Shown piece after piece: positions 6,572-23,843 of a DNA stretch of 29,499 nucleotides (position 1 is its first letter; the number at the start of each line of letters is the position of its first letter). Source of the stretch: a virus. The position numbers and the translations under genes were made by a program. A model generated the notes under the pieces. It had not been told where the DNA came from and searched no databases. It saw only the letters and a program-made list of their open reading frames with translations. The stretch lies in the IMG/VR virus record IMGVR_UViG_3300025418_001157, positions 1-29,499 of that record, one strand, 5' to 3'.

Positions 6572-7294
6572 ATGAAAGATAATCTATTAGATTTGGTAGA
6601 ACACACGCACGATTTGGGCTGTATTGAGCTGATCAAAGTCACTGGGGATGCCAATGGCACAGAAGTGGTAGGGGTTGGTACTGATCAATCAGTGGTACTT
6701 GATGCAAAGTTTGCAGTGCCGGAACCAAAGTTTGTAGGCACGTTTGGTATGCCCAATTTGGGAAAGCTGAAAATTTTGCTAAACTTGGATGCCTACAAAG
6801 AAAACAGCACACTTACAGTTACGCACAAAGCCACAGGAGAGCCCGACGGAATTGATTTTGCCAACAACTCTGGGGACTTTAAAAACAACTACAGATTTAT
6901 GACATCTGGCGTAGTTGACCAACAGGTAAAAACACCAAAATTCAGAGGTGCTACCTGGCATGTGTCGTTTGTGCCCACAGTGGTTGCAGTTCAACGATTC
7001 AGAATGCAGGCTCAAGCACACAGTGAGGAAACCAGTTTTCAAGTCAAAACTGACAACGGAAATCTAGTGTTTTCGTTTGGTGATCACAGCACACACTCTG
7101 GCAACTTTGTTTTCCACACAGGAGTCTCTGGTCAACTCAAACGATCATGGAGTTACTCTATCAAAACTGTGATGAATATTTTGAGTTTGACTGGCGACAA
7201 AACATTCAGTATCAGTGATGACGGGTGCGCTCAGATCACCGTGGATAGTGGGCTGGCAACGTACAACTACATTTTACTAGCATTGACCAAGTGA
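6572..7294 (+). CDS. Sliding clamp, T4 gp45-like DNA polymerase processivity factor
   Basis: This 240-residue protein is rich in beta strands, with alternating hydrophobic residues and few Cys, close to the roughly 228-residue gp45 clamp. The C-terminal strand ends in a Y-N-Y-I-L-L-A-L pattern like the last strand of clamps. The N-terminal part has a Gly/Val/Asp repeat pattern, and a middle section is consistent with the interdomain linker. Gp45 forms a ring that tethers the polymerase, and in T4 it also activates late transcription. That links it to the DsbA-like gene upstream. It has its own promoter and a good AGGAG site. Its end overlaps the DpdA-like gene by 4 nt, so clamp and DNA-modification genes are co-transcribed. 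The call is by pattern and context. Confidence 0.7.
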   Translation: MKDNLLDLVEHTHDLGCIELIKVTGDANGTEVVGVGTDQSVVLDAKFAVPEPKFVGTFGMPNLGKLKILLNLDAYKENSTLTVTHKATGEPDGIDFANNSGDFKNNYRFMTSGVVDQQVKTPKFRGATWHVSFVPTVVAVQRFRMQAQAHSEETSFQVKTDNGNLVFSFGDHSTHSGNFVFHTGVSGQLKRSWSYSIKTVMNILSLTGDKTFSISDDGCAQITVDSGLATYNYILLALTK

Positions 7295-8844
7295 CGCAAG
7301 ACAATCTAACTGCCAAGCAAAGCGACTACGCTGTATTCTTGCCAGCCATCAGCGGTTTTTATGCTACTTTTGTGGGCAAACAACGTGCAGGAGCCTATGT
7401 AGACCCTGCTCGAATGCCAGCAGGAATACAAGACATGGAACAGATGAATTGGCTCAACAGCCAACAAGCATTGTTTCCCTATCGTTGGAGCCTGTATTCT
7501 GGTGGTCATGCCAACCTAGATCTTACCAAGTCAGATCCTTCAGAAGACATGGTGCGAGCCAGAGAGCCTGGCACACTCATGCTGGGAGATTCAGGTGGAT
7601 TCCAGATTGCCAAAGGCCTTTGGGAAGGCGACTGGAAAGCCAACTCGGGCTGTCCCAAAGCACAAAAGCGCAGAGAAGCAGTGTTAAAGTGGCTGGATGG
7701 TATTTGTGACTATGGCATGACACTAGATATTCCGACCTGGGTCATACATGATAAAAAAGCCGGCGAAGCCTGCGGAATCCGAACATTAAAACAAGCAGTA
7801 GAAGCTACCAAGTTCAACAACGAATACTGGATGAAACATCGTCGAGGTGTTGCTAATGGCGGCATGAAGATTCTCAATGTGTTGCAAGGTGCCAATCATG
7901 CCGATGCCGAACGTTGGTATCAAGACATGAAACAGTACTGCGATCCCTCAATCTATCCAGACACACATTTTAACGGTTGGTCAATGGGTGGTCAAAACAT
8001 GTGCGATGTGCATCTTGTGCTCAAACGACTGGTAGCATTGCGTCATGACAATTTGCTACAAACAGGCATACACGATTGGATGCACTTCTTGGGCACATCA
8101 AAGTTGGAATGGGCTGTGTTACTCACCGTGATTCAAAGAGCAGTTAGAAAGTATGTTAATCCAAACTTTACTATAAGCTTTGATTGTGCCAGCCCATTCC
8201 TTGCCACTGCCAATGGACAGGTGTATCATCATATTGATCTACCGCACAATGGCAAATGGAGTTATAGAATGAGCCCTATTGTAGATGATAAGAAGTATTC
8301 CACAGACACAAGAACATATCGTGATGCGGTGCTCCAAGATGGCTTGGTGAAACATTTTGATGAGTCGCCGATCAGTGCACAATTGCAAGTCAAAGATGTT
8401 TGTGTATACAAGCCCGGCGATCTAAACAAAAACGGCAAAGAAGGTAAAACAAGCTGGGACAGTTTTAGTTACATGCTGCTTATGGGGCACAATGTTTGGA
8501 CACATATAGAATCAGTTCAACGTGCCAACAGAGAGTTCGACACAGGAAACTATCCCAACATGTTGTGGTATGAAAATGGCGATCACTCGAAATTCCAAGA
8601 GATTGTGGATGCTATATTTGCCACACCCGATCGTACAGAATCAGAGTCTATCATTGAATACTACAGTAGATACTGGATGGACATCATTGGCACTCGCGGA
8701 TTCAAGGGCAAAAAAGCACTCAGCGGGCGTCCCATGTTTGATCAATTCTTTGAAATTGAAGAAACCAGTGTTGACTCAGAATCGGATGATAGTGTACAAT
8801 TAGACGAGTCAGCATTAGATCAACTGGAACAGGAACAAGAATGA
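7291..8844 (+). CDS. dpdA: DpdA/TGT-like DNA 7-deazaguanine transglycosylase
   Basis: This 517-residue protein belongs to the tRNA-guanine transglycosylase superfamily, as a divergent DNA-acting type. Visible motifs are D100-S-G-G-F-Q (substrate recognition in TGT), L-Q-G near 198-200, a G-W-S-M-G-G block near 229-234 (the G-L-S-V-G-E position), a F-L-G block near 266 (M-G-V-G position) and F-D298-C-A-S-P (the nucleophile Asp of the D-C-x-x-P-T block). The C-terminal zinc-binding Cys cluster of tRNA enzymes is not seen; the tail is acidic. DpdA proteins exchange guanine in DNA for preQ0 or related bases. The gene starts at a GTG in a GTGA overlap with the clamp gene. FolE, QueD and QueE are encoded 12-19 kb downstream. 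A tRNA or other target is less likely but not excluded. Confidence 0.8.
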   Translation: MTQDNLTAKQSDYAVFLPAISGFYATFVGKQRAGAYVDPARMPAGIQDMEQMNWLNSQQALFPYRWSLYSGGHANLDLTKSDPSEDMVRAREPGTLMLGDSGGFQIAKGLWEGDWKANSGCPKAQKRREAVLKWLDGICDYGMTLDIPTWVIHDKKAGEACGIRTLKQAVEATKFNNEYWMKHRRGVANGGMKILNVLQGANHADAERWYQDMKQYCDPSIYPDTHFNGWSMGGQNMCDVHLVLKRLVALRHDNLLQTGIHDWMHFLGTSKLEWAVLLTVIQRAVRKYVNPNFTISFDCASPFLATANGQVYHHIDLPHNGKWSYRMSPIVDDKKYSTDTRTYRDAVLQDGLVKHFDESPISAQLQVKDVCVYKPGDLNKNGKEGKTSWDSFSYMLLMGHNVWTHIESVQRANREFDTGNYPNMLWYENGDHSKFQEIVDAIFATPDRTESESIIEYYSRYWMDIIGTRGFKGKKALSGRPMFDQFFEIEETSVDSESDDSVQLDESALDQLEQEQE

Positions 8845-9359
8845 ATAGAGAAGGCCACGAAAATACACGATTCTTCTACGGCAACGAAGTAGAACATACT
8901 CCTGCTTACGGCCGATACACACTGTTTGTAGTTGGTGTTCAGGATATCGAACACATTAGATTGCGTTTAACCGTTGGCAGTGCACCAGTTGAACATATCT
9001 ATTTTGGTGCAAACCAGAGCTTTCCAAGGTGCGATGTCAATGATGTTGATGCATGGCGTCCTTGGGAAACCATGATCAAGTTTTTTCTAGAGCATGATTA
9101 CTTGTGCACATTAGACATCGATGTGACTTGTGCCGAAGGATTGTTGGAATCTGGACTAACGGAATATCATAACTTTATTCCCATGATATCAGTCAAACTG
9201 CCGTACATCAATCAGTTTGGTTACAATGCTACAATCAAAATAGACGACCGAGACTTCAACGCAACCAATCCTGGTGTATGGTGCCATAGTTTGCATGAAC
9301 TACAAGATCGTAGACGATTTACCAATTGGTCACAATATAGCAAAGATGAAACTGTATGA
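8841..9359 (+). CDS. Unknown protein, second gene of the DpdA chain
   Basis: This 172-residue protein starts in an ATGA overlap with the DpdA-like gene, so translation is very probably coupled. I do not recognise the family. It is soluble, with a central beta-rich section, and no signal peptide or membrane helix. Several Cys and His are spread through it (a C-D-V block near residue 64, a W-C-H block near 147), and the C-terminus is charged. The D-x-D-V-T-C segment near residue 93 could be a metal or active site, but I see no known motif. Its placement suggests a role with DpdA, for example target recognition or an editing step. That is inference from operon structure only. Confidence 0.75.
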   Translation: MNREGHENTRFFYGNEVEHTPAYGRYTLFVVGVQDIEHIRLRLTVGSAPVEHIYFGANQSFPRCDVNDVDAWRPWETMIKFFLEHDYLCTLDIDVTCAEGLLESGLTEYHNFIPMISVKLPYINQFGYNATIKIDDRDFNATNPGVWCHSLHELQDRRRFTNWSQYSKDETV

Positions 9360-9772
9360 AAATTGGATTGAGTTATAGTCGATGTGTTAGAGACATTGTT
9401 GACGGAGTTGTGGACATTGCAGATGTGCTGGTTGTCATCGCTAGAACAGATTTTGATCCGCATGATGACGCACAATGGAATAGTATTTGGGTTGGTTATC
9501 ATGATAGCTTTGGATTGAGTAATCCAGAATGGCGTAACTATCCGCCCGAAGACGAAGACCGTTTTCGTAGTGTCAGTATCGAACTTTGGGAATCAGGCCG
9601 ACTACACCAACCACGAAAGTTTGGAGTCAACCCCAAACGCTTGCCCTACTATTGGCTGGAAACTGGATTGCCCAGTGATGAATTAGACAGATTTCCTGCA
9701 GTTAAAATGGCCTGGGACCAATTTCAAACAGTGGCCGGACTTGCCGGTGTTAAATTAAACAAGGATGCATGA
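9356..9772 (+). CDS. Unknown protein, third gene of the DpdA chain
   Basis: This 138-residue protein overlaps the genes on both sides by 4 nt (ATGA each time). Family not recognised. The N-terminus, M-K-I-G-L-S-Y-S-R, looks like a first beta strand and is followed by I-V-D-G-V-V-D-I-A-D. The middle is unusually rich in Asp, Glu, Trp, Tyr and Pro, with P-P-E-D-E-D-R-F-R-S near residue 63. A P-K-R-L-P-Y-Y-W-L-E block follows near residue 93. No membrane segment, signal peptide or coiled coil is visible. It is tied to DpdA only by the overlapping gene order, and a function cannot be assigned from sequence. Confidence 0.75.
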   Translation: MKIGLSYSRCVRDIVDGVVDIADVLVVIARTDFDPHDDAQWNSIWVGYHDSFGLSNPEWRNYPPEDEDRFRSVSIELWESGRLHQPRKFGVNPKRLPYYWLETGLPSDELDRFPAVKMAWDQFQTVAGLAGVKLNKDA

Positions 9773-10035
9773 TGAGATGGATTAAAAGAAAACTAAGAAA
9801 CTGGGTCAACGACGATCAAGACATACTTGCTGTCAGTGAAACTGCTTCTCACAGTTTGGACAGTCGCGGGTTTAGACTGCAGGTCTGGAAAGCATCTGGT
9901 GGCATTGTAATTGAAACCAGTGCCTACGATGAACGCAAGGACCGTCACATGCAGGGCTTGCATGTGATCACCGAAGACAAAGATCTTGGCACAGAAATTA
10001 GCAAAATTATAACTTATGAGAGCTTGAAACTATGA
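9769..10035 (+). CDS. Small basic unknown protein, fourth gene of the DpdA chain
   Basis: This 88-residue protein starts at 9769, where ATGATG gives a second possible start three bases later; either keeps a close overlap with the previous gene. The first 14 residues are strongly basic and aromatic (M-M-R-W-I-K-R-K-L-R-N-W), which would suit nucleic acid binding. The rest has alternating strands with G-F-R-L-Q-V-W and G-I-V-I-E-T. No known family is recognised. The 3' end overlaps the T-fold-like gene by 4 nt. A DNA-binding accessory role in the modification is an inference from the basic N-terminus and the position. Confidence 0.7.
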   Translation: MMRWIKRKLRNWVNDDQDILAVSETASHSLDSRGFRLQVWKASGGIVIETSAYDERKDRHMQGLHVITEDKDLGTEISKIITYESLKL

Positions 10036-10475
10036 ACTTAGAACAAAGAGAGACCATTGACAGAATCAGTTCTGTGGCCGAAAGAAAAATTTGGGTCACA
10101 TTCCAAAAAGAAGGTGTGCATTGCTATCCAGCAGCCGCCACAGATCCACAACTGGCAACCGGAGATGAATATGATGTTTCGTTCCTTGGTACTCCTCACC
10201 GTCATATTTTTCATTTCAAGTTGCACATCGATGTATTCCACAACGACCGAGACATCGAGTTTATTCAGTTCAAACGCTGGTTGGAAAATCTCTACAAAGA
10301 TAGTATACTAGCACTAGACTACAAAAGTTGTGAGATGATTGCAGATGACCTATATATACAAATAGCCAGCAGATATCCCAATCGTGCTGTGTGGATCGAA
10401 GTCGCCGAAGATGGTGAGAATGGATGCTTGATCAAGTATGAAATTTCTCGTCCTAACTTATCTATTGCAATATAA
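10032..10475 (+). CDS. T-fold-like protein resembling QueD/QueF, last gene of the DpdA chain
   Basis: This 147-residue protein has features of the tunnelling fold shared by PTPS/QueD, FolE and QueF. An H56-R-H58 pair starts a strand, where QueD has HGH. It is followed by I-E-F-I-Q-F-K-R near residues 75-82, which sits where QueF and PTPS have E-x-K/F-x-x-L-K. Then comes S-C-E-M-I-A-D-D-L (99-107), like the T-A-E-N-L-A block with its substrate Glu, and finally W-I-E-V-A-E-D. A Cys31 lies in the N-terminal part. QueF reduces preQ0 and QueF-like enzymes add ammonia to it, so this gene could alter the deazaguanine further. It begins in an ATGA overlap. The fold is likely; the reaction is unknown. 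Confidence 0.55.
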   Translation: MNLEQRETIDRISSVAERKIWVTFQKEGVHCYPAAATDPQLATGDEYDVSFLGTPHRHIFHFKLHIDVFHNDRDIEFIQFKRWLENLYKDSILALDYKSCEMIADDLYIQIASRYPNRAVWIEVAEDGENGCLIKYEISRPNLSIAI

Positions 10476-11093
10476 ATGAATTTATTAATTTGTGGAGACA
10501 GTTTTGCTGCCGATTGGACAGTAAAATACTCTGGCAAAGGTTGGCCAAACATGTTGGCCGAGCAATATAATGTGACAAATTTGGCCCAGGCCGGATGTAG
10601 CGAATACAAGATACTCAAGCAATTAAAATCAGCTGACCTTGAGCAGTATGATCAAATTATTATAGCACATACCAGTCCATATAGAGTATATGTGCGACAT
10701 CATCCAGTACACCAACATGACCCTTTGCACAATAACTGTGATTTTATCTATGCAGATCTGGTTGAGCATGTGACTAATAATAAAGAACTCGGATCTATTG
10801 TTCACTATTTTGAAAACTATTTTGACACAGACTACGCAAAAGATATACATACTCTGCTATGCCAAGAAATTGAAAGATTTATTACCCCAGTGCAGGACCG
10901 AGTTATTTCTATTACCAATTTAGATTATAAAGGTTTGTATCAGTTCAAAAACATGATCAAATTTGATAATCTTTTTGCATCTAATAGAGGGCTGATGAAT
11001 CATTATGACGAAGCTGGCAATCTGAAAATATTTGAAATTTTATCAACTACCCTAAAAAGGAAACAAAATGGGTCAAAAACATCATACCCCTAA
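10476..11093 (+). CDS. Second SGNH-hydrolase-like protein
   Basis: This 205-residue protein opens with a strand into C-G-D-S-F (residues 6-10), the block I motif of SGNH/GDSL hydrolases. A second strand, Q-I-I-I-A-H-T-S-P (near residue 60), fits block III, where Asn or Gly is usual; I see no clear C-terminal D-x-x-H. It lacks a signal peptide. The ATG follows the preceding TAA directly. The last 26 nt overlap the next small gene. Phage SGNH proteins often act in carbohydrate deacylation. Here the downstream glycosyltransferase and epimerase make a sugar substrate plausible, but that is inference. It is shorter than and distinct from the SGNH-like gene at 196. Confidence 0.5.
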   Translation: MNLLICGDSFAADWTVKYSGKGWPNMLAEQYNVTNLAQAGCSEYKILKQLKSADLEQYDQIIIAHTSPYRVYVRHHPVHQHDPLHNNCDFIYADLVEHVTNNKELGSIVHYFENYFDTDYAKDIHTLLCQEIERFITPVQDRVISITNLDYKGLYQFKNMIKFDNLFASNRGLMNHYDEAGNLKIFEILSTTLKRKQNGSKTSYP

Positions 11094-11292
11094 TCCCCGA
11101 GTGCAAGCAATTTTTGAAGACCTCGAACAGTTTTTAGAATTCTGTCAAGACTACGGATATCGCTACAACGAGGGAGATCTTTATAACTTTAAAAGTTATG
11201 CTTGGCAACAGTTCAATAAATGGCACCAAGGCAAAAATGCCAAAAACATGTGGGCCGAAGATGGTCGTAGATTTGCAGGATATCGCACATGA
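11068..11292 (+). CDS. Small phage protein of unknown function
   Basis: This 74-residue protein has AAGGAAA at a good distance before the ATG at 11068, and its end overlaps the glycosyltransferase gene in an ATGA. Its start lies inside the SGNH-like gene (26-nt overlap, another frame). It is rich in aromatic and charged residues, with G-Y-R-Y-N-E-G-D-L-Y near the middle and a W-A-E-D-G-R-R-F-A-G end. No known domain is recognised. The overlaps and ribosome binding site support a real gene; the function is unknown. Confidence 0.65.
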   Translation: MGQKHHTPNPRVQAIFEDLEQFLEFCQDYGYRYNEGDLYNFKSYAWQQFNKWHQGKNAKNMWAEDGRRFAGYRT

Positions 11293-12491
11293 GAAAACTC
11301 TATTACATGGGGCTCGAAAGTTACGAGGCCCGTTATACATTACAACTGACAGAATGGAACCGTCGAGTGTTCAATCAGCGAGGACTAGATGTTGTATATG
11401 TTTCAGGTACCACCATTGACAACACACAGGCTATTTCTGTGGGTCAGGTGCTAGACGCACACGGTCGCAGTTATTTTAGCATGAGCCAGATGATGAACCT
11501 GGTTCAGCTAATGAAGAACGGAGAAGTCACCCATGAAGATGTTATCTACTTTGAAGACATGTTTCAACCTGGTATGGAATCGTTGCCTTATATTCTTGAT
11601 CAGGTACCAGCTGACCAACGCCCTCGTGTGTATGTGCGCTGTCTTGCTCAATCCATTGATCCTGACGATTTTGTACATGTTTGGAGTATGGCGCGATGGA
11701 TGGGCCTGTACGAACAAATGGTTAACGAATTTGTTACAGGAGTTCTCGCCACAAACGAAGAAATGGTTGCTCACATGCGCATTGCTGGATGGCGTGCTCC
11801 TATATACAATATTTCGGGCCTAGCATTTGGTAAATCTGAAGTGTTAGAGCGTATCGGAGGTGCAAATAATATTCAACCATTTGAAAATCGTGCCATGCGT
11901 GTGGGCTTTGCTGCAAGATTTGATCAAGAAAAGCAACCTGGATTCTTTATGGATCTCATTGAAATGTGGCATCAACAAGGTCCGTACCCAGTGGAGTTTG
12001 CTATCTATTCCGGTGGTCCGTTGCGTAGTAACAATCCTGAATACATTAATCGGGCTGACTCGTTGGCACATGAAGGTAAACTAAAAATCTATGATAATTT
12101 AAATAAAAATGATTACTATTCTTTGCTCAATGATACTAGGGTGCTCTTTAATTGCGCTCTTCAAGATTGGGTTTCCAACACAGTCAGTGAAGCAGATAGT
12201 CTTGGGTGTAACGTACTATACCCTGCTTATAGGTCTTTCCCTGAAACTTTTGCTAATGACCCTAACAGACTTTATGTTCCTTGGTCTATAGATGATGCGT
12301 ATATTAAATTAAATAATCTGTTACAACATCCACATCACAACATGGGCCTGATTTCAGACTGGAACAACGGTACCATTGACCGTGTGATTGATATCATGCA
12401 AGGCAAAGGCGAACAATGGAATCGCAGTGGCAATAGATACAGAGACCATGTGCCAGGAGACAAATATACTGTGGTAAAGATTGAATCATGA
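11289..12491 (+). CDS. GT-B type glycosyltransferase (GT4-like)
   Basis: This 400-residue protein looks like a two-domain GT-B glycosyltransferase. The C-terminal domain opens with a strand G-F-A-A-R-F-D near residue 209, the position of the nucleotide-sugar binding domain. Later a helix-rich part holds N-D-T-R-V-L-F-N-C-A (near 284) and S-N-T-V-S-E-A-D-S-L-G (near 301), like the E-x7-E region that binds the donor. The N-terminal half has several Tyr-rich strands. It moves a sugar from a nucleotide donor to an unknown acceptor, in the cytoplasm. Both ends overlap neighbours in ATGA. The next gene, a GalE-like epimerase, could make its donor. Phages use such enzymes on DNA or on surface glycans; which one is not visible. 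Confidence 0.65.
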   Translation: MRKLYYMGLESYEARYTLQLTEWNRRVFNQRGLDVVYVSGTTIDNTQAISVGQVLDAHGRSYFSMSQMMNLVQLMKNGEVTHEDVIYFEDMFQPGMESLPYILDQVPADQRPRVYVRCLAQSIDPDDFVHVWSMARWMGLYEQMVNEFVTGVLATNEEMVAHMRIAGWRAPIYNISGLAFGKSEVLERIGGANNIQPFENRAMRVGFAARFDQEKQPGFFMDLIEMWHQQGPYPVEFAIYSGGPLRSNNPEYINRADSLAHEGKLKIYDNLNKNDYYSLLNDTRVLFNCALQDWVSNTVSEADSLGCNVLYPAYRSFPETFANDPNRLYVPWSIDDAYIKLNNLLQHPHHNMGLISDWNNGTIDRVIDIMQGKGEQWNRSGNRYRDHVPGDKYTVVKIES

Positions 12492-13432
12492 TAGTAGCAG
12501 TTACAGGAGCTTCTGGTTATATTGGCGGACATGTAGCACTTAAATTAGCCGATGCCGGGCATTCGGTAGTAGGTATTGACCTTAGACCTTGCCCGTCTCA
12601 TCTGACCTGCTTTGAAAATTTTATCCAAGAAGATTTTGCCAGCGACACAGTGCTGAAATTTATCAGTAGTGGTAATATTGATGCCATTGTGCACTGTGCT
12701 GGTACCAGTCTTGTGGGTCCTAGTATGATAAATCCGCAAGAATACTATCATAACAACACAGTGAAGACCTTGACATTGCTGGATACTGTTGTAAAAAATT
12801 CTATTAGAACTAGAATTATTTTTAGTTCAAGTGCGGCGGTGTATGGAGTTCCTATCATGGTACCTTGTAGTGAAGTTGACCCTTGTGAACCTATTAGCCC
12901 TTATGGCGAAAGCAAATTGGCCATAGAATGGATTTTGCGTGGGTATCATCGAGCATATGGTCTTGACTACGTGGCATTTAGATATTTCAATGCAGCAGGA
13001 GCAGACTGTCAAGGACGACATGGCCAAGAACCCGGTGCTACACACATCATTGCTAGAGCATTAGAAAGCGTTAAAAATCAGATTGGGTTTGCATTGTATG
13101 GTAACAATTATGAAACTGCTGATGGTACCTGCATTCGTGACTATGTCCATGTGGAAGACATTGCTGATGCCCATGTTACAGCACTAGATCAGTCTGTACT
13201 TGTTGGAGTATATAATCTTGGAACCAATCAAGGTACCAGCAATTTAGAAGTTATACATCGTATTGCACAAGTAGTTGGAGTAAATATGGCAGTAGAATTA
13301 AAAGGCCGGCGAGAGGGAGATCCCTCTCAGCTCACTGCTGATTCAACAAAATTCCAGACCATGACCAACTGGAAACCGCAATTTGATCTGTCAGACATAA
13401 TAAAACATGCTTGGAACTGGTACTCCCGATAA
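12488..13432 (+). CDS. galE: UDP-glucose 4-epimerase-like SDR (GalE family)
   Basis: This 314-residue extended short-chain dehydrogenase has the NAD-binding G-A-S-G-Y-I-G at residues 7-13, an acidic D31 ending the second strand, S-S-S-A-A-V-Y-G at 113-120 with the catalytic Ser, and Y139-x3-K143. The F-R-Y-F-N-A-A-G-A block and the C-I-R-D-Y-V-H-V segment are typical of GalE. It interconverts UDP-glucose and UDP-galactose or their N-acetyl forms. The length (about 330 usual) is complete. It overlaps the glycosyltransferase gene by ATGA. With the UDP-glucose dehydrogenase-like gene at 27954 it suggests a nucleotide-sugar pool under phage control. Related decarboxylases or dehydratases are less likely. 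Confidence 0.85.
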   Translation: MIVAVTGASGYIGGHVALKLADAGHSVVGIDLRPCPSHLTCFENFIQEDFASDTVLKFISSGNIDAIVHCAGTSLVGPSMINPQEYYHNNTVKTLTLLDTVVKNSIRTRIIFSSSAAVYGVPIMVPCSEVDPCEPISPYGESKLAIEWILRGYHRAYGLDYVAFRYFNAAGADCQGRHGQEPGATHIIARALESVKNQIGFALYGNNYETADGTCIRDYVHVEDIADAHVTALDQSVLVGVYNLGTNQGTSNLEVIHRIAQVVGVNMAVELKGRREGDPSQLTADSTKFQTMTNWKPQFDLSDIIKHAWNWYSR

Positions 13433-13440
13433 GTAGTTTA

Positions 13441-15258
13441 ATGCTCAATGTTTATCTATTTCAGCCACAGTTCACTATGGATTTTAATTCAAAAATTCAA
13501 TATTGGATTCCGTACAGTGTAGGATGTATATGGAGTTACGCAGCACAATATGACTGGATATCCAACAATTTTGAATTAAAAGATTTAATTTTTTCTCGAG
13601 AAAAAATCTCCAAGCTAATTGATCGGTTGGACAATCCAGCAGTTTGCGGATTCAGTTGCTATTTGTGGAATGAAAAATATTGTTTAGCAGCTGCCCAAGC
13701 AATCAAATCTCGTTGGCCCAACTGCTTAATAATCTTTGGCGGCCCGCAAATTAATACTGATACGTTGAGCAACACATTTATAGATTGTATAATTATGGGC
13801 GAAGGAGAAAAAGCCTTTGTTGATATATGCAAAACCTTAATTGACGGTAGGGCAGTTGAACCCATGTATCTAGGACAACGCATGGAGTATCTAGAAATTC
13901 CTAGCCCATACACCACTGGAGTATTTGATAAAATAATAAAGCAAAATCCCACGGCAGTATGGCAAATGACCATGGAAACCAATCGAGGATGTCCTTATTC
14001 GTGTACATTTTGCGATTGGGGCAGTCTGACCTATAGCAAAGTCAAACAATTTACATTGGAAAAAGTAACTGCAGAAATTGAATGGGCGGCAAATAATCCT
14101 GTGACTTATTTTTATTGTGCTGATGCTAATTTTGGTATCTTTAAAGAGCGGGATACTGCCATTGCCAAAATCATGCGCGATAAACTGTATAATACCCAAG
14201 TGGAAACTATCAGTATACAATTTGCCAAGAACAGTAACGAAACAGTGATAGACATAGCCAAAATTATTGGTCCGTTAAACAAAGGACTTACTCTAAGCGT
14301 GCAAAGTCTGAATGATAAAACTTTGACCACTATTAAGCGTAAAAATTTAGCAAGCAATAATATAAAAGAAGTTTTAGCAATCAGTGCACAGAGTGATATT
14401 AAAACTTACAGCGAACTGATTCTTGGCATGCCCGACGAAACGCTGGAGTCTTGGCGTAATGGAATAACTGAACTGTTAGAAATAGGTCAACATCAAAGTA
14501 TCGAAGTATGGTTTTGTCAGTTGTTGAAAAATTCGGAGTTGGCTAGCCAGGACAGTCGAAAAACACACAAACTTGGCACAATATTGGTCAAAGATTACAT
14601 GGCCATGTACAACGATTGTGACGAAGAAATAACAGAATATGTTGAATTGGTCAATCAGACCGCAACCATGTCTACGCAGGAATTGATAGACTGTTATATG
14701 TACGCTTGGATGATCATACACTTCCACATATCAGGATATACCGAACTCACTGCTAAATCTGCTAGAGCAACTGGTATCAGTTATAGAAAATTTTACGATG
14801 CGTTGTATGATAAAATACCGCTTGATTCTGTGGTTGCGGAGCATTATCAACAATTAAAAAACTATGTGTCAGAATACTTGACCAGTGGAAAGACTTTTTA
14901 TAAAAATGGTCATGCTATACATTCTTACAGTTATAATTTCATGTATGACAATAAACAACAATTGTTTGAGCTGGGCAATCAAACCTATCTGGATCTAGTA
15001 GATTCGGCCACATCTGAATTGCTTATTTTGCAAAAGTCTTTTATATATGATCATACTGTAGATTATCCCCATATTATTTCTATCAATCTAGACTCCCAGA
15101 GTCTATTGCCCAGTGACACTGTGCATAGTTATAAAATTGATTCGCAATTTGATAGTTCTAAAGATCTGTATGCAGCTCGACGAAAAGGTCTGCTAAAAAA
15201 TTCTATTACACAATTGGGTGATATAAATATTTTTACCAATGCCACAATCCATGAATGA
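13441..15258 (+). CDS. B12-binding-type radical SAM enzyme
   Basis: With the ATG at 13441 this protein has 605 residues; a TTG at 13411 inside the epimerase gene is also in frame but less plausible. Residues 1-150 look like a cobalamin-binding Rossmann domain, with I-I-F-G-G-P-Q near 97 and M-G-E-G-E near 119. The B12 His motif is not clear. The radical SAM centre is C184-P-Y-S-C188-T-F-C191, the canonical C-x3-C-x2-C. The C-terminal 200 residues are specific to this protein. Such enzymes methylate, cyclise or rearrange unreactive carbons. The substrate is unknown, but oxygenase, aminotransferase and acyltransferase genes follow directly. It overlaps the next gene by 20 nt. Confidence 0.85.
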   Translation: MLNVYLFQPQFTMDFNSKIQYWIPYSVGCIWSYAAQYDWISNNFELKDLIFSREKISKLIDRLDNPAVCGFSCYLWNEKYCLAAAQAIKSRWPNCLIIFGGPQINTDTLSNTFIDCIIMGEGEKAFVDICKTLIDGRAVEPMYLGQRMEYLEIPSPYTTGVFDKIIKQNPTAVWQMTMETNRGCPYSCTFCDWGSLTYSKVKQFTLEKVTAEIEWAANNPVTYFYCADANFGIFKERDTAIAKIMRDKLYNTQVETISIQFAKNSNETVIDIAKIIGPLNKGLTLSVQSLNDKTLTTIKRKNLASNNIKEVLAISAQSDIKTYSELILGMPDETLESWRNGITELLEIGQHQSIEVWFCQLLKNSELASQDSRKTHKLGTILVKDYMAMYNDCDEEITEYVELVNQTATMSTQELIDCYMYAWMIIHFHISGYTELTAKSARATGISYRKFYDALYDKIPLDSVVAEHYQQLKNYVSEYLTSGKTFYKNGHAIHSYSYNFMYDNKQQLFELGNQTYLDLVDSATSELLILQKSFIYDHTVDYPHIISINLDSQSLLPSDTVHSYKIDSQFDSSKDLYAARRKGLLKNSITQLGDINIFTNATIHE

Positions 15259-16015
15259 TACACAAGATGTACACGAAAAACTTTATGTTTTTTTCAACAA
15301 TCTAATGCGAAAAATCAATCCCAGAGACTATTTTTGGGACTACAAGTCAGGAAATCCTGTGCCGCATATTGTACTGGATAATTTTTTGCCAGATGATATA
15401 TTTAAAATAGTGTCTCAAGAACCAAACAATATCCCGGAATATCTTTGGAATGACTTTACCAGAAATGGTAGTCACATGAAAGAATACAAGTCCATGATCA
15501 ATACACCTGTGTTGCACACATTGACCAATTGTTTTAATTCTGGAGTATTTGTTGACTGGTTAGAAAGACTAACTGATCATAAAAAACTAGTGCCAGACCC
15601 GCACTTGATTGGAGCAGGACTTTGTAAAACCTATAAAAATGCCAGTTTAAAACTGCACACCGATTTTAATTGGAACGACGAGCTGGCACTTAATCGACAA
15701 CTAAGTTTGATATTGTATATCAATCCTGTTTGGGAAGAGTCATGGAAAGGCAGTTTGGAATTCTGGGATTTTGACAAAAAACAAATCCTTCAATCTATAA
15801 TGCCACGACCCAATAGATTGTTGATATGGAATTACGATCCAAGATTGCTACATGGGTATCCGGCTCCATTGGAGTGCCCAGAAGATCAAGTGCGCATGAA
15901 TCTGCGTGTGTTTTATTTTCAAAGCGACGGGCAACCCAGAACAACGCCACATCGTAGCTTGTACTGGTGGGACGACAAACAAAAACAACCATTCGACGAC
16001 CGAACACATAAATGA
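15239..16015 (+). CDS. 2-oxoglutarate/Fe(II)-dependent oxygenase-like protein
   Basis: This 258-residue protein has the metal triad H140-x-D142 followed by H205, and an Arg (219 or 223) that would hold 2-oxoglutarate. The strand pattern around L-S-L-I-L-Y-I-N and L-L-I-W-N fits the double-stranded beta-helix. This is the prolyl-4-hydroxylase-like group, which hydroxylates proteins or small molecules. The start is the ATG at 15239 or one at 15251. It overlaps the radical SAM gene by 20 nt and the next by 4 nt (ATGA). A substrate is not visible. Many phages carry 2OG oxygenases that act on nucleotides, so a nucleotide-modifying role is possible. Confidence 0.75.
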   Translation: MPQSMNDTQDVHEKLYVFFNNLMRKINPRDYFWDYKSGNPVPHIVLDNFLPDDIFKIVSQEPNNIPEYLWNDFTRNGSHMKEYKSMINTPVLHTLTNCFNSGVFVDWLERLTDHKKLVPDPHLIGAGLCKTYKNASLKLHTDFNWNDELALNRQLSLILYINPVWEESWKGSLEFWDFDKKQILQSIMPRPNRLLIWNYDPRLLHGYPAPLECPEDQVRMNLRVFYFQSDGQPRTTPHRSLYWWDDKQKQPFDDRTHK

Positions 16016-16920
16016 ACAAAAATATTTTAGTAATGCCAGATAGAAAAAAACTGCCTTATGGTGGTGCTGAAGCAGTGGTCAATCCTGAATTTACCACCAT
16101 TGTTGACCAGATGGTCAACACTGCAATCAAAAACAACTGTTTGCAAAATTTATCAATTCAAGATAATTTTACCAGTCTCTACAAACAATGGATATTGTCA
16201 AGTAAACTTAACCAAATAATTGGCCTGGATCAGTTTGCCATTGGAGCTTACAGCAATGGCACATCTGAAAGTTTTGATAAATTTTATCTCAAACATCATA
16301 CACGTCGTTTTAGATGCCTGCGCGGTGAGTACATGTATCACATGGCGGCTTGGAAAAATTATTTCCCAGACTGGCAATACATCGACGACAAACCATTAGA
16401 ATCTAATGATGCAGTGGTAATAAGTTTTCCGTTTGCTAACACAGGCCAAGAGCACAATCGCACACAAGAAATTTTAAACACTTGTGCTCAATTAAACATT
16501 CCTGTATTAGTAGACTGTGCATACTTTGGCATATGTGGGGATATGACATTTGATTTTTCACATCCTGCCGTCACAGATGTTGTTTTTAGTATGAGTAAAT
16601 TTTTACCCGTACCGCATCTACGCATAGGGGTTCGTTATACCAAAACAGATGATGATGATAGTTTACTGGTCAATAACAAGACACTGTACACAAATAGATT
16701 GGGTGCAGCTGTAGGTGTAGAAATAATGAACTCATTCCACCCGGATCACATATATAACACATACAGATCTGCACAATTAAAACTGTGTAAAGAGTTGAGT
16801 ATCACTCCAAGTAAAAGTGTAATTTTTGGTCTGGACCATAATAATTTATATCCAGATTACAATCGCAACAGTACCTCAAACAACAGACTGTGTCTTGCCA
16901 AGTATCTGAACAATGATTAA
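16012..16920 (+). CDS. PLP-dependent aminotransferase-like protein (fold type I)
   Basis: This 302-residue protein has the key signature of class I/II aminotransferases: D168-C-A-Y171 in a strand (Asp binds the pyridine nitrogen, Tyr the phenol oxygen) and S-M-S-K196-F-L-P-V-P-H-L-R204-I-G (Schiff-base Lys and the phosphate-contacting Arg). A N-G-T-S-E-S block at residues 82-87 is the phosphate-binding loop. Length is below the family's usual 380-400, so the small domain is reduced or replaced. It starts in an ATGA overlap with the oxygenase gene. It may amino-transfer a keto intermediate made by the neighbouring enzymes. The substrate is unknown. Confidence 0.7.
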   Translation: MNKNILVMPDRKKLPYGGAEAVVNPEFTTIVDQMVNTAIKNNCLQNLSIQDNFTSLYKQWILSSKLNQIIGLDQFAIGAYSNGTSESFDKFYLKHHTRRFRCLRGEYMYHMAAWKNYFPDWQYIDDKPLESNDAVVISFPFANTGQEHNRTQEILNTCAQLNIPVLVDCAYFGICGDMTFDFSHPAVTDVVFSMSKFLPVPHLRIGVRYTKTDDDDSLLVNNKTLYTNRLGAAVGVEIMNSFHPDHIYNTYRSAQLKLCKELSITPSKSVIFGLDHNNLYPDYNRNSTSNNRLCLAKYLNND

Positions 16921-17434
16921 ACAACTAAAACTAAACTACGACATGTCTGTGTTTTTAAATGCAGATTATACTCAACACGAAGGTAGTTGTATCAAACATC
17001 AAGTTCACGAACTCACTGATATACATGAAAAATTTGGTGGATTTCCGGCCACATATACCTATCACAACACCTTGATACATCAACTATGGTGGGACAACAC
17101 ACAAATTGATTTTGATGAAATAGGTCGCCAGATGTGTATGGAGATTGTGACCGTGAGTAGTATTAAACAACCACCTGGATGCGTGATACCATGGCACAGA
17201 GACACCTTCTTCAAGATCAACTCAATGTATCCCACACGAACTGAAACCAAAGTTCGTGCCAACGTGCATTTGGAAGACTGGAAGCTGGGTCATTTTATAC
17301 AGTACGAAGACAATGTGTTTACCCATTGGTGCGCTGGAGACACACTGTTGTGGGACAGTGAAATTTTACATCTGGGCGCCAATGCAGGCATGCAAGACAA
17401 ATACACGCTGCAGGTATCTGGATTTTTGCTATGA
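16913..17434 (+). CDS. Second 2OG-Fe(II) oxygenase-like / cupin-fold protein
   Basis: This 173-residue protein has an H95-x-D97 motif (P-W-H-R-D-T) and a distal H153 (I-L-H-L-G-A), the 2-His-1-Asp iron site of 2OG oxygenases or Asp/Asn hydroxylase-like proteins. An N-V-H-L-E-D-W block lies between. It overlaps the aminotransferase gene by 8 nt and the next gene by 4 nt. The start is the ATG at 16913, with another ATG at 16943. It is small and lacks a clear 2OG-binding Arg, so a cupin-type enzyme is an alternative. Together with the first oxygenase it would make two oxidation steps in one pathway. Confidence 0.6.
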   Translation: MIKQLKLNYDMSVFLNADYTQHEGSCIKHQVHELTDIHEKFGGFPATYTYHNTLIHQLWWDNTQIDFDEIGRQMCMEIVTVSSIKQPPGCVIPWHRDTFFKINSMYPTRTETKVRANVHLEDWKLGHFIQYEDNVFTHWCAGDTLLWDSEILHLGANAGMQDKYTLQVSGFLL

Positions 17435-18075
17435 ATGTCAAATTAACATATCAATTGTTACACGATAACAATATGACTTTGTGTTTTATTGGTAAATCAT
17501 TTACAAATTCGCTGTTGCTGAATTATTTTGCCAATCACAGATCAGTTGTGCAATACAGTTTTGAAGAACTGTTGACAAAAGATCAAACTTGGTTTGATTC
17601 ACACCAATTTATTGTTACTGCAGCCAATATACCATTTAAGAAAATGGTAATAGAAGGACTAGCATCGTTCAGCCCCAGTTATTTTAGTGTGATAGCTGAT
17701 CATAATCATATTGGCTTTGATGTCACCATTGGACGCGGTGTGGTTGTTGATGATTTCAATGTGTTGTGTGACGGCACAATAATTGGTAATTATACCACAA
17801 TCTCTCATCATTGTGCATTGACTCATGGAGTTGTAGTTGGTGATTTTTGTCATGTGGGGCCATTCGCACAGTTTTTGTATGCCACGATAGGCAACGGATC
17901 CTATATGGCAGCACGAACCAGTGTGGTTGGCTCGCGAGATGCCCCCACTAAAACTGTAGATTATTGTAATTTTATTATAGGATCAACTGTGACTAAAAAT
18001 ATAGTCAGCACTGGCACTTACTATGGTAACAGATGCATTGACCAGGCTGGCAGTCTGACCAAGAAGATCGACTGA
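17431..18075 (+). CDS. Left-handed beta-helix acyltransferase (NeuD/PglD-like)
   Basis: This 214-residue protein has an N-terminal nucleotide-binding-like domain (residues 1-85), followed by hexapeptide repeats of the [LIV]-G-x4 type. Visible repeats include I-G-F-D-V-T-I-G-R-G, T-I-I-G-N-Y-T-T-I, V-V-G-D-F-C-H-V-G and T-I-G-N-G-S-Y. This layout matches sugar O- or N-acetyltransferases such as NeuD and PglD, which use acetyl-CoA. A His in the helix (S-H-H-C) could be catalytic. It starts in an ATGA overlap. Its 3' end overlaps the convergent acyl-CoA ligase by 93 nt. It closes the plus-strand biosynthetic run and probably caps or protects an amino group made by the aminotransferase, by inference. 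Confidence 0.75.
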   Translation: MNVKLTYQLLHDNNMTLCFIGKSFTNSLLLNYFANHRSVVQYSFEELLTKDQTWFDSHQFIVTAANIPFKKMVIEGLASFSPSYFSVIADHNHIGFDVTIGRGVVVDDFNVLCDGTIIGNYTTISHHCALTHGVVVGDFCHVGPFAQFLYATIGNGSYMAARTSVVGSRDAPTKTVDYCNFIIGSTVTKNIVSTGTYYGNRCIDQAGSLTKKID

Positions 18076-19506
18076 TTTTCTATTTTTTTTGTTAGTCACT
18101 GTTTCTGGCAGTACCGACGCAATAGTAATTTTTTTTGGTATTTGATGCGTCATTAACCTGGATACTAGCCAACTATTGAATTCGTTTAGATCAAATTGAT
18201 CAGTGGGTACAATACAAGCACACACTTCAGCAACACCTTTCAAGTTGATGCCACGATATATCATGACTTGATCCACTGTAAAATTCTGCAAGATCACTGC
18301 TTCTATCTCAATTGGATTGACCACCAGGTCGTTGACTTTAAACACATCGTCCACTCGCCCGTCGAACACAAGATTTCCTTGTTCGTTCCAGTGTGCACGG
18401 TCTCCTGTGCGTACCCAGCCATTGACAAATGTTTGACTGGTTTTTTCTGGATCTCTGTAGTATCCAACTGCTGCAGCTGGACTGCAAACATAAATTTCAT
18501 GATCGCGAATTTGTATTTTGCAACCTGGCAACGGTTTACCAATTGTTCCAGGTTGATGTTCCCAGTCCGGGTTGGCTGCATAATTGGAAGCAGTCTCCAT
18601 CATACCAATGCAACAGTTCAGCTTGAGTCCAAAACGCGATAGAAATTTATCATATAGTGCACGAGGAAGATCCTCGCCACTGCTGTGAAAATGCTGGATA
18701 CTGTCAGGCAAGGAGAATTTGTCTGCTGGCTTGCCTACTAGTTTTCTAATTATGCTAGGAGATGTTACCACAATAGTGGGTCTGTACTGATTTATATACT
18801 GGAATATCACAGACACAATCGGAGCTTCTGGCATTAGTATGGCAGTAGCACCTAACCCTGTGACATAGGTAATACTGTTGTGCAGGCCAAAATTCCAGGA
18901 CAGTTTAGGTATGCTTAGAATCACACTGTGCTCTGTCATTCCGTAACTGGTTTTTGGACTTATTGACAACATAGCAAATAGCGTTTGATGTCTATGCATA
19001 GCTACCTTGGGCAAGCCGGTTGACCCGCTGCTGACATGCATAAATGCCACAAAGTCACTGTCAGGCAAGTAACAGTCCACCGTGCCATCAAACTCTGTGT
19101 AGAAATTTACCAAATTGTCACGAGTGATCACAGGCACAAGATTATTAGATGGGTTTTTAAAATTGTTACCAGCTAGTATAGTTTTACACCCAACAAAATC
19201 AGCTAATTGATAAAATAAATGCGATCCAAGCGCATGGCTCAATGGTGTGGGTACTATGCCTGCATAAAGACAACCCAAAAACACGCACGGCCAGTCCACA
19301 CAATCCTCCATGCAGATAATCACATGGTCCCCTGGAGCCAGTCCACTGGCCAACAGTCCTTGCGCAATTCTTGGAATTCTATCTATTAGATCTCTATAGC
19401 TTAAATCTTGTGTGCCATCTCGAAAGGCCAATTTATCAGGATGTCGTTTATTGTGTTGTATTACATAATGAGCAAAATTGAGATCAGTTTTGAATTTCTT
19501 TGGCAT
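17983..19506 (-). CDS. AMP-forming acyl-CoA ligase (benzoate-CoA-ligase-like)
   Basis: This 507-residue protein is on the minus strand. The ANL adenylation signature S-S-G-S-T-G-L-P-K is at residues 159-167. A G-M-M-E-T block is near 301, and R-T-G-D-R followed by G-R-V-D-D is in the A7-A8 region. A Lys-rich V-T-N-K-K-N-R-K close to the C-terminus supplies the catalytic Lys. It adenylates a carboxylic acid and passes it to CoA or another thiol; the general pattern is that of benzoate/4-hydroxybenzoate ligases. Its ATG overlaps the end of the upstream binding-protein gene by 23 nt, without its own ribosome binding site, so it is coupled to it. The 3' end overlaps the convergent acyltransferase by 93 nt. 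The acid is unknown. Confidence 0.85.
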   Translation of the reverse strand: MPKKFKTDLNFAHYVIQHNKRHPDKLAFRDGTQDLSYRDLIDRIPRIAQGLLASGLAPGDHVIICMEDCVDWPCVFLGCLYAGIVPTPLSHALGSHLFYQLADFVGCKTILAGNNFKNPSNNLVPVITRDNLVNFYTEFDGTVDCYLPDSDFVAFMHVSSGSTGLPKVAMHRHQTLFAMLSISPKTSYGMTEHSVILSIPKLSWNFGLHNSITYVTGLGATAILMPEAPIVSVIFQYINQYRPTIVVTSPSIIRKLVGKPADKFSLPDSIQHFHSSGEDLPRALYDKFLSRFGLKLNCCIGMMETASNYAANPDWEHQPGTIGKPLPGCKIQIRDHEIYVCSPAAAVGYYRDPEKTSQTFVNGWVRTGDRAHWNEQGNLVFDGRVDDVFKVNDLVVNPIEIEAVILQNFTVDQVMIYRGINLKGVAEVCACIVPTDQFDLNEFNSWLVSRLMTHQIPKKITIASVLPETVTNKKNRKSVDLLGQTASLVNASVTIVSASADYIFSHS

Positions 19507-20413
19507 AGATTTTGCGATAGTTTAATAAAGTACCAATGCTTTTATCATAATGTGATCTGACTGCTTGAGCGGAAAATGGTTGACTCACAAAATCGCCAGA
19601 TTTAAAAAGATCTTCTTGACCTATAGTCTTGGTCGATAGTGCAAATATTTGTGCAATTTCGTTGCGTTTTTCTTCGGGCATTTTGACAGACGCCACTGTG
19701 AATTGCCAAATATAGGGCCCATTTAATTTTTGTTCTTTCAAAGTTTTGACCATGGGAAAATCACCATGTCGCGTGGCACAGTTTATTCCTAGTGCCTGCA
19801 GATGTGAATTATTTTTATTGGCTAAATTTTGATAATTTACCAATCGATCCATCACAAAGTTTATGCCGTCACCAGCTGCCATGCCCACCATAGCGTCATA
19901 ATTGGATTTGTACACAATGTATCTTACGGGAATCTGATACTGACGTCCTACTTCTAGTGCAACAAGATGTGCAGCACCTCCAATTGCAGGGCCGCCAACA
20001 ACCAATTCTTTGATATTTTCTTTTCTAATACTTTCTAATCCAGAATCACTGTTTCCAAAATTAGTTACCACTGCCCAGCAGGCATCACCGTGACTGAACA
20101 CTGGCACAATATCATTTAAATTTACAAAACCACGGTCCACACTCTCAATCACACTGTTGGTAATGGTAGCAATACGTTCGGCGGGATTTTCCAACATATA
20201 CCTAATACCAATGCTTTCAAAGCCTCCAGTTTTGAACTCTAGTACAAATTTATATTTTGATTGAACAGAATTGGCTGTATCCACAATTTTAAAAATTTGA
20301 GGCGTCATGCTTTGGCTAGGGCCTTGTGCATTCACCACAGTGATTATTTCTTGTGCATAGCCTGTTGTTGCAGCTAACCATAACACCACTGCGTATAATA
20401 AACGTTTTATCAT
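19484..20413 (-). CDS. Periplasmic substrate-binding protein of the TctC/Bug type
   Basis: This 309-residue protein is on the minus strand. Residues 1-20 are a signal peptide (basic start, hydrophobic core, G-Y-A before Q21), so it is exported to the periplasm. The mature part has a two-lobe pattern with V-V-G-G-P-A-I-G-G-A-A-H-L (near residue 140) and Y-K-S-N-Y-D (near 169), which match the G-x-G-G-x-x-H-L and Y-K-G regions of tripartite tricarboxylate transporter TctC/Bug proteins that bind organic acids. Membrane partners TctA and TctB are absent here. An AGGAG site sits just before its ATG; I found no clear promoter upstream. It is unusual in a phage and may alter host uptake. The family match is by pattern. 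Confidence 0.65.
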   Translation of the reverse strand: MIKRLLYAVVLWLAATTGYAQEIITVVNAQGPSQSMTPQIFKIVDTANSVQSKYKFVLEFKTGGFESIGIRYMLENPAERIATITNSVIESVDRGFVNLNDIVPVFSHGDACWAVVTNFGNSDSGLESIRKENIKELVVGGPAIGGAAHLVALEVGRQYQIPVRYIVYKSNYDAMVGMAAGDGINFVMDRLVNYQNLANKNNSHLQALGINCATRHGDFPMVKTLKEQKLNGPYIWQFTVASVKMPEEKRNEIAQIFALSTKTIGQEDLFKSGDFVSQPFSAQAVRSHYDKSIGTLLNYRKIYAKEIQN

Positions 20414-20518: not shown

Positions 20519-21265
20519 TTGACAAACAAACAAGAAACAGCATTAGATGCAATGGCCGGAGACGGTGGCTATCAAGAATCTACATTGGCAGATACTATTC
20601 GTTTTAGAATGAAGCGAGATGGCAAGAGATTCTGGGCTAACGATAATATTAGCGAATACTTGTCTGATATCTATCGCAAAAAACTAATAGACGAAGCAAC
20701 TGAGGCATTTGAACAAGTGCTGAAGACCTTGCTGATTGACACAGAAACAGATCCTAGTAGTAAAGGTACTGCCCGGCGATTGGCAAAAATGTATATTAAT
20801 GAGGTAATGAGTGGAAGATATGAACCAGCCCCGGACGCAACAGCGTTTCCAAATGACTCGGAGGACCGTTACGAAGGTATGTTGGTTGTCCGTAGTGAGC
20901 TTCGTAGCATGTGTAGCCATCATCACCAACCTGTGGCTGGTGTGGCTTATATTGGTATTATTGCTGCCAGTAAACTTATTGGTTTATCCAAGTATTCCAG
21001 AATCGCCCAGTGGTGCGCCAGACGAGGTACTCTCCAGGAGGAACTTTGTAATGACATTGCTAAAGAAATAGGCAAGGCCACAGGCGCAGATGACATCGGT
21101 GTATACATGCAGATGACACACGGATGTTGTGAAAATCGAGGTATTATGGCACATTCAAGTTTGACTCAGACCACGGTGCTAAAAGGGTCATTTAAATCAG
21201 ACCTAGGCACCAAAAAAGAGTTCTTTGATAACATCAAACTACAACAAGAATTTGCGCCCAGATAA
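20519..21265 (+). CDS. folE: GTP cyclohydrolase I (FolE)
   Basis: FolE makes 7,8-dihydroneopterin triphosphate from GTP, the first step to both folate and preQ0. This 248-residue protein has the zinc and active-site block M-C132-S-H-H-H near 131-136, and a second Cys pair in H201-G-C-C-E-N-R-G, where the usual motif has one Cys with H-x-C-M-x-x-R-G. The K-L-I-G-L-S-K block before Y159 also fits FolE. The start is a TTG with GGAGA 6 nt upstream. With QueD and QueE it forms most of a preQ0 pathway. The N-terminal 75 residues are phage-like. I saw no sign of truncation. Confidence 0.95.
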   Translation: MTNKQETALDAMAGDGGYQESTLADTIRFRMKRDGKRFWANDNISEYLSDIYRKKLIDEATEAFEQVLKTLLIDTETDPSSKGTARRLAKMYINEVMSGRYEPAPDATAFPNDSEDRYEGMLVVRSELRSMCSHHHQPVAGVAYIGIIAASKLIGLSKYSRIAQWCARRGTLQEELCNDIAKEIGKATGADDIGVYMQMTHGCCENRGIMAHSSLTQTTVLKGSFKSDLGTKKEFFDNIKLQQEFAPR

Positions 21266-23364: not shown

Positions 23365-23365
23365 T

Positions 23366-23764
23366 ATGAAATACGAAAAATTAGATGATGCACAAGCTGC
23401 AGGAGTGGCGCCCTGGGATGACTTTGTTCGGGAAGATTTTCATGTCGTGGTATTCAGAGATCGATACCCAGTGACGACTGGGCACTTGTTGTTTGTTCCT
23501 GTGTACAACACAGAAGGATTGATCAAAGACGCATTTGGTGATGCAGTTCAAGAAGGCGAACGCATGATCGCCCAAGGCGAGTGTGATGGTTACAATGTAG
23601 GGCTGAACATGGGCACTGCAGCAGGACAAACTGTGATGTATCCACATGTGCATCTTATTCCTAGGCGCCAAGGTGATTGTGCAGATCCTGTGGGTGGAGT
23701 TCGTGGTGTTGTTCCTGGACAAGCAAACTATAAATCTGACGTCTATATCAATCCCAATAAATAA
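23366..23764 (+). CDS. HIT-family nucleotide hydrolase/transferase
   Basis: This 132-residue protein starts at the ATG at 23366, two bases after the protease stop; upstream in-frame codons belong to the protease gene. It has H94-V-H96-L-I-P-R-R, the histidine triad with the last position changed, and an N-terminal T-T-G-H-L-L-F-V-P strand typical of the family. HIT proteins hydrolyse or transfer nucleotidyl groups, for example on ApnA or AMP-lysine. The third His of H-x-H-x-H is replaced by Pro here, as in Hint-like variants where R follows, so activity may differ. Next come the ribosome binding site and promoter of QueD. Confidence 0.8.
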   Translation: MKYEKLDDAQAAGVAPWDDFVREDFHVVVFRDRYPVTTGHLLFVPVYNTEGLIKDAFGDAVQEGERMIAQGECDGYNVGLNMGTAAGQTVMYPHVHLIPRRQGDCADPVGGVRGVVPGQANYKSDVYINPNK

Positions 23765-23795
23765 TGTCTCAGCGGCCTTTCGGCGTTCATCCCGC

Positions 23796-23824
23796 TATAC
23801 AAACTCTGCCGCCTATGCTATACT
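23796..23824 (+). promoter_or_regulatory. Possible promoter for the QueD gene
   Basis: TATACA at 23796-23801 and TATACT at 23819-23824 are 17 nt apart, each an imperfect match to the sigma70 boxes. The -10 box ends 6 nt before AGGAGA (23831-23836), like the short-leader arrangement at 1793 and 6543. Confidence 0.45.
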
Positions 23825-23843
23825 TAACATAGGAGAAAACAGC

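Follow-up and report, generated by a model that had tools for sequence, protein, structure and literature searches.

How a virus might make a 7-deazaguanine base without QueC, build it into its DNA and modify it further is the question raised by the 29,499-nucleotide (nt) virus record IMG/VR IMGVR_UViG_3300025418_001157, the whole of which we call the window. On its plus strand, a gene for a divergent DpdA, a DNA guanine transglycosylase-like protein (7291–8844), is followed by a conserved companion, open reading frame (ORF) 8841 (8841–9359), by a T-fold gene (10032–10475), by genes for a GT-B (GT4-like) glycosyltransferase (11289–12491) and a GalE-like NAD-dependent sugar epimerase (12488–13432) and, further downstream, by folE, queD and queE. 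We propose, with about even confidence, that these genes form a QueC-free module for 7-deazaguanine DNA modification, in which processing by the T-fold enzyme is followed by insertion through the divergent DpdA and then by glycosylation. Homology gives good support to the 7-deazaguanine context of the module; beyond that, we infer a decarboxylation, the addition of a sugar to the base and a role for ORF 8841.

A preliminary description of the window had called the product of the 7291 gene DpdA/TGT-like (TGT, tRNA-guanine transglycosylase), an identity borne out by profile comparison. The DSGG motif and a catalytic aspartate are hallmarks of TGT-type enzymes, and DSGGFQ (D100–Q105) and D298 are invariant in 14/14 DpdA sequences. 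The 517-residue window protein, which is read from a GTG start and carries both DSGGFQ and FDC motifs, gave zero matches to Pfam or PHROG families; nt-1 DpdA2 and CAjan DpdA likewise have zero Pfam matches, and a profile search of PDB sequences with the DpdA alignment returned nothing meaningful. The DpdA family profile aligns with a DpdA2-like profile at 95.5% (hhalign, E 1.4e-8) and with the member of that profile from Acidovorax phage ACP17 at 92.1%. This ACP17 member in turn matches nt-1 DpdA2 at E 1e-50, nt-1 YP_008125322 being the protein to which Hutinet et al. gave the name DpdA2 (PMC6884629). Direct hhalign comparison with the single CAjan DpdA or nt-1 DpdA2 sequence stayed below 5%. 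Judged by its sequence, the window protein is thus related to the known DpdA/DpdA2 proteins.

The T-fold gene (PHROG 17812) encodes a paralogue with the fold of QueD, and its recognition as a T-fold enzyme in the preliminary description agrees with the predicted structure. The AlphaFold2 model (mean predicted local distance difference test score, pLDDT, 87) has E. coli QueD (4ntk) as its best Foldseek match (E 4.8e-5, TM 0.72 by target), and E. coli QueD and P. horikoshii PTPS lead the VIA results (Z 11.8–12.0); comparison with a QueD profile gave 89.3%. The protein has zero Pfam PTPS match, and nothing meaningful emerged from a profile search of PDB sequences with the T-fold alignment. With zinc and catalytic-cysteine roles assigned as in QueD, the alignment shows H30, H56, H58 and E126 to be invariant in 31/31 T-fold sequences, whereas the position of the catalytic cysteine, four residues ahead of the His motif, holds leucine in 31/31 T-fold and cysteine in 5/5 phage QueD sequences. 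The protein therefore shares with QueD/PTPS the fold, the His triad pattern and an invariant C-terminal glutamate, but differs in lacking the cysteine, while a genuine QueD is encoded elsewhere in the same genome. Since the fold and the triad are kept and the cysteine is replaced, we regard it as a QueD-fold enzyme with an altered active site, probably one that processes 7-carboxy-7-deazaguanine (CDG).

Which pathway would feed such an enzyme? The window encodes FolE, GTP cyclohydrolase I (20519–21265; PF01227, 127.7 bits), QueD of the PTPS family (23646–24341; PF01242, 54.4 bits) and QueE, a CDG synthase-like radical S-adenosylmethionine (SAM) protein (26112–26981), all on the plus strand. 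Read from its first start codon, the queD ORF would begin within a HIT-domain gene (23291–23764), and the QueD alignment suggests a probable true start at about 23844. The T-fold gene itself was found in 27 of 50,697 phage records. Of the 12 whose surroundings were opened, 10 have an annotated GTP cyclohydrolase gene no more than about 10 kb from it, the exceptions being Paride, in which folE is 57 kb away, and Roos, which is without one; searches of whole records found FolE in 23/24 and a PTPS protein in 22/24 T-fold records. Full-length QueC was found in none of these 24 records and in none of 20 in a second batch (0/44), in a search that scored the controls CAjan and nt-1 at 251 and 180 bits and that also gave partial matches to NAD-synthase-type P-loop proteins in several records. 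ORF 27151 (27151–27906, plus strand) was ruled out as queC, because it scores 166.9 bits as NAD_synthase against 20.1 bits as QueC. No QueF match exceeded the cut-off in 23 records, and two weak QueF matches fall inside folE. A UbiD-type decarboxylation route, modelled on tubercidin, for which PMC6112128 proposes a UbiD-type CDG-nucleotide decarboxylase, was dropped, UbiD being present in 0/23 records. Because full-length QueC, UbiD and QueF were not found in the T-fold records searched, the pathway seems to end at CDG, with the T-fold enzyme standing in QueC's place.

Some carriers of the T-fold gene have other surroundings. T-fold phages in which DpdA was undetected carry, close to the T-fold gene, a gene for a MazG-like pyrophosphatase or for a deoxynucleoside monophosphate kinase (Cellulophaga phage phiST, L093 8415–9002; Vibrio phage D479, L090 10543–11088), which may point to incorporation as a nucleotide; the phiST T-fold query gave zero matches among viral contigs. 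Adjoining queE in Synechococcus phage BUCT-ZZ01 is a gene for a xanthine-guanine phosphoribosyltransferase (L092 4459–4920).

In the mechanism that we propose, FolE, QueD and QueE would yield CDG, and the T-fold enzyme would act on CDG or a close relative, most likely removing the carboxylate to leave 7-deazaguanine. The divergent DpdA, perhaps with ORF 8841 as a subunit, would exchange guanine in the viral DNA for the base so made, and the glycosyltransferase, drawing on a sugar from the GalE-like epimerase, would decorate either the inserted base or the free base before insertion. The purpose of the modification would be escape from restriction enzymes, because 7-deazaguanine in DNA is known to shield phages from restriction (PMC6884629). 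The complete outcome, namely glycosylated 7-deazaguanine in phage DNA, arising from CDG without QueC through QueD-fold processing, a divergent DpdA and dedicated GT4-like capping, is put forward tentatively, its chances being in our estimate a little under even.

An E-x7-E motif is a hallmark of GT4-like glycosyltransferases; R210, E214, K215 and E301 are present in 18/18 sequences of the family, position 293 is D or E in 18/18, and profile matches to glycosyltransferases in the PDB range from E 0.001 to 0.4. The D/E-x7-E and other motifs of the 11289 product fit a GT4-like GT-B glycosyltransferase, the activity being a predicted one. Profile matches occur in 13 of 23 whole records, one per record, and in these records, which measure 104 to 469 kb, none of the 13 genes is farther than 2.1 kb from the T-fold gene. 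The order of the genes varies: DpdA, ORF 8841, T-fold, glycosyltransferase in the window type; DpdA, glycosyltransferase, T-fold in Paride and ACP17; glycosyltransferase, DpdA2, T-fold in X1; DpdA2, T-fold, glycosyltransferase in BUCT-ZZ01, whose glycosyltransferase is 66.7% identical to that of the window; T-fold, glycosyltransferase in Phosso, where dpdA is about 172 kb off; and glycosyltransferase, T-fold, DpdA in Magnetospirillum and a Verrucomicrobia contig. Methylobacterium contigs also have the trio, in an order unlike the window's. Among 12 cultured T-fold phages, glycosyltransferase and detectable DpdA are both present in 5 and both absent in 7 (Fisher p 0.0013), and among 21 T-fold records DpdA was found in 10/13 with the glycosyltransferase and 0/8 without it (Fisher p 0.0008); these tests are uncorrected for relatedness and the profiles were partly built from the same phages, so that the p values serve as a guide. 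Beyond phage records, 22 bacterial or archaeal genome contigs have a T-fold gene, 17 of them with the glycosyltransferase and 16 with DpdA of either family; some of these contigs probably belong to phages and were binned with the genomes. In Magnetospirillum contigs L270, L272, L273 and L275, the glycosyltransferase, T-fold and diverged DpdA genes stand together on contigs of up to 1.4 Mb, and the flanking ORFs give mixed PHROG matches, so that either a prophage or a host gene cluster may be present. BUCT-ZZ01 has a second glycosyltransferase-like gene (L092 6376–7719) in the same cluster.

Several observations weigh against our proposal. Seven of the 12 cultured T-fold phages have neither the glycosyltransferase nor detectable DpdA, so the T-fold enzyme must also act without both, and in 3 of the 13 glycosyltransferase-positive records (G017, G019 and G020) no DpdA was found. 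The Pfam glycosyltransferase score of 18.8 bits is below the cut-off of 27, decarboxylated CDG would offer no obvious handle at C7 for a sugar, and no PDB structure matches the model of ORF 8841 with confidence. As to the lack of QueC, the window and many of the virus records compared are fragments, and D479, G021 and G031 have a distant QueC-superfamily protein that matches only the QueC C-terminus, so a QueC-free pathway is not proved there. Diverged ATP pyrophosphatases of this superfamily, matching the QueC C-terminus only, lie at L257 195–884, L258 161–814 and L259 311–1114 in three T-fold-bearing records.

The alternative that survives best is a plain dDG/dCDG system, in which unsubstituted 7-deazaguanine or CDG would be the final base in DNA, and the glycosyltransferase and epimerase would act on something else, such as another base, a virion protein or a host surface sugar. 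It would account for the 7/12 cultured phages with a T-fold gene and no glycosyltransferase; a point of attachment for a sugar on 7-deazaguanine is not known, and large phages commonly have nucleotide-sugar genes. It does not readily explain why the glycosyltransferase occurs once per record, adjoins the T-fold gene in 13/13 cases in various orders and with two DpdA subfamilies, and tracks DpdA among cultured phages. We consider the plain system possible, if rather doubtful.

Supply of 7-deazaguanine for host tRNA by the queuosine route, or for a small molecule instead of DNA, is improbable. DpdA is indeed a member of the tRNA-guanine transglycosylase superfamily, and in Streptomyces sp. NEAU-Y11 (L281 7905–10110) a distant T-fold gene has queD, folE and a deaminase-like ORF as neighbours but no dpdA, in what is possibly a 7-deazapurine natural-product cluster. 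Without QueC, however, the preQ0/queuosine precursor is not made, the transglycosylase is DpdA2-like, and in related loci the module adjoins replication genes.

How far does the module extend? The preliminary description had proposed a five-gene system led by dpdA and joined by 4-nt overlaps, with the clamp gene leading into it. The chain of overlaps is exact: the sliding-clamp-like gene (6572–7294, plus strand; PHROG 12062, to which PHROG assigns no function) meets dpdA in GTGA at 7291–7294, and ATGA junctions follow at 8841–8844, 9356–9359, 9769–9772 and 10032–10035. Conservation was assessed with a DpdA query of viral contigs, which gave 554 stretches, the best 80 of which were used for locus comparison; the resulting set of 84 loci includes four loci of cultured phages as well as L001, which is nearly identical to the window. 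In profile searches of the 79 loci without L001, many of which end early, matches to ORF 8841 were the most numerous (75 loci), followed by those to the T-fold gene (60), the glycosyltransferase (53) and the epimerase (47). In the related loci having enough sequence, ORF 8841 follows dpdA in 50/50 and the T-fold gene follows ORF 8841 in 40/40, while the glycosyltransferase follows in 36/36 with more than 3.5 kb beyond the T-fold gene. As the loci compared are those closest to the query, the figures describe conservation within one group and not independent events.

The remaining members of the chain fared differently. ORF 9356 (9356–9772), a variable gene, was detected in 13/84 loci, and ORF 9769 (9769–10035), a small diverged gene, in 35/84; both are on the plus strand, and both gave zero matches among the 50,697 phage records. 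Being patchy in relatives and unmatched in these records, they were left out of the core. ORF 9769 begins MMRWIKRKLRNW, in keeping with the strongly basic N-terminus ascribed to one product. The 4-nt overlap between dpdA and ORF 8841 recurs in 52/75 scorable pairs, which exceeds chance; that between ORF 9356 and ORF 9769 is present in 4/10 pairs, that between ORF 9769 and the T-fold gene in 16/31 and that between the clamp gene and dpdA in 19/77, with a gap of more than 60 nt in 45/77. The five-gene unit is thus only partly conserved, and the clamp link is its weakest. Of the proposed system, ORF 8841 and the T-fold gene do co-occur with dpdA, and in many phages accompany it together with folE, queD and queE, so that the lack of co-occurrence that would have refuted the system was not seen; ORF 9356 is not supported as a fixed partner, and ORF 9769 only weakly; a special link to the clamp and replisome finds no backing in 19/77 overlaps, and protection of the replication fork by products of the chain is unsupported. 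The true module is wider than the chain, taking in the glycosyltransferase, the GalE-like epimerase, folE, queD and queE downstream. The preliminary description had overlooked the glycosyltransferase and GalE-like genes, which are, after the T-fold gene, the partners most consistently present, as well as the lack of QueC. A chance cluster of early replication-region genes, in which overlaps common in phages reflect only compact genomes and shared transcription, would suit the free variation of ORF 9356, ORF 9769 and clamp–dpdA insertions, but is very improbable and strongly disfavoured given that DpdA, T-fold and glycosyltransferase genes stay linked despite reordering across distant phages and bacterial contigs.

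ORF 8841 is perhaps a helper subunit of DpdA, a role that we infer. A homologue (L083 7330–7728) precedes the DpdA2-type gene of ACP17 with a 4-nt overlap, and in Paride a homologue lies about 28 kb from dpdA. The predicted model (pLDDT 80) gave no confident fold match, a profile search of PDB sequences with the ORF 8841 alignment gave nothing meaningful, and the ACP17 homologue was the only BFVD match below E 0.001. A hint of QueE came from VIA (B. subtilis QueE, Z 5.9 over 127 residues) and from weak NrdG/QueE rows in BFVD; ORF 8841 was rejected as a QueE paralogue, with hhalign values of 0.2–0.8%, which did not exceed those of column-shuffled controls.

Parts of this system have counterparts in known ones. 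Cui et al. (2023, Nucleic Acids Research) reportedly predicted DpdL as a CDG decarboxylase in dDG/dCDG phages; going by this description, DpdL would occupy the same slot as the T-fold enzyme, past QueE and without QueC, so that the T-fold family may be DpdL and the QueC-free step may already have been predicted under that name. The T4 alpha- and beta-glucosyltransferases glycosylate DNA bases, and the window resembles T4, by description, in pairing a phage glycosyltransferase with a gene for sugar-nucleotide supply, hypothetically for a modified DNA base; it differs in the base and in the GT4-like sequence, the activity of which is predicted. With the DpdA/DpdA2 phages CAjan, nt-1 and Rosebush, described in PMC6884629, the window has FolE, QueD, QueE and a TGT-like DpdA in common, and the same exchange of bases in DNA is expected. 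Unlike them, it is without full-length QueC, has a DpdA too diverged for a Pfam or PHROG match, and adds a QueD-fold enzyme, ORF 8841, a glycosyltransferase and a GalE-like gene. Precedents for a sugar on a 7-deazapurine are huimycin, a small molecule whose base is glycosylated by the dedicated enzyme HuiG (PMC7439116), and mannosyl- and galactosyl-queuosine in tRNA; we liken them by description, the targets there being a small molecule and tRNA and here, by hypothesis, DNA.

7-Deazaguanine DNA and DpdA are already known, whereas the linked glycosyltransferase and epimerase and the divergent DpdA appear new. Our literature search recognised no glycosylated 7-deazaguanine in phage DNA; the work of Cui et al. 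lay outside that search, and absence from print is not claimed. The accessible parts of the Paride paper do not mention deaza, queuosine or base modification. If true, the proposal would bring to the chemistry of phage DNA a hypermodified guanine, comparable to the glucosylated cytosine of T4, would give a role to the T-fold family PHROG 17812, which has so far been without an assigned function, and would extend the DpdA family to sequences missed by Pfam and PHROGs. Among cultured carriers are BUCT-ZZ01, whose host is S. elongatus PCC 7942, and Pseudomonas phages of the PA5oct/Paride group, which grow on PAO1.

A few other features of the window deserve mention. The clamp gene has a relative in Sinorhizobium phage Phosso that carries a sliding clamp annotation (106 bits). 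Between the T-fold and glycosyltransferase genes lies a small conserved gene, ORF 11068 (11068–11292, plus strand), and ATGA overlaps continue at 11289–11292, where it meets the glycosyltransferase gene, and at 12488–12491, between the glycosyltransferase and epimerase genes, the latter 4-nt overlap being kept in 31/43 related loci. From the epimerase gene to folE extends an island (13411–20413) with genes for a B12-binding radical SAM protein and a 2-oxoglutarate (2OG)-Fe(II) oxygenase, further ORFs and two minus-strand genes; among the 84 loci, only the near-identical contig L001 has a match to its radical SAM gene.

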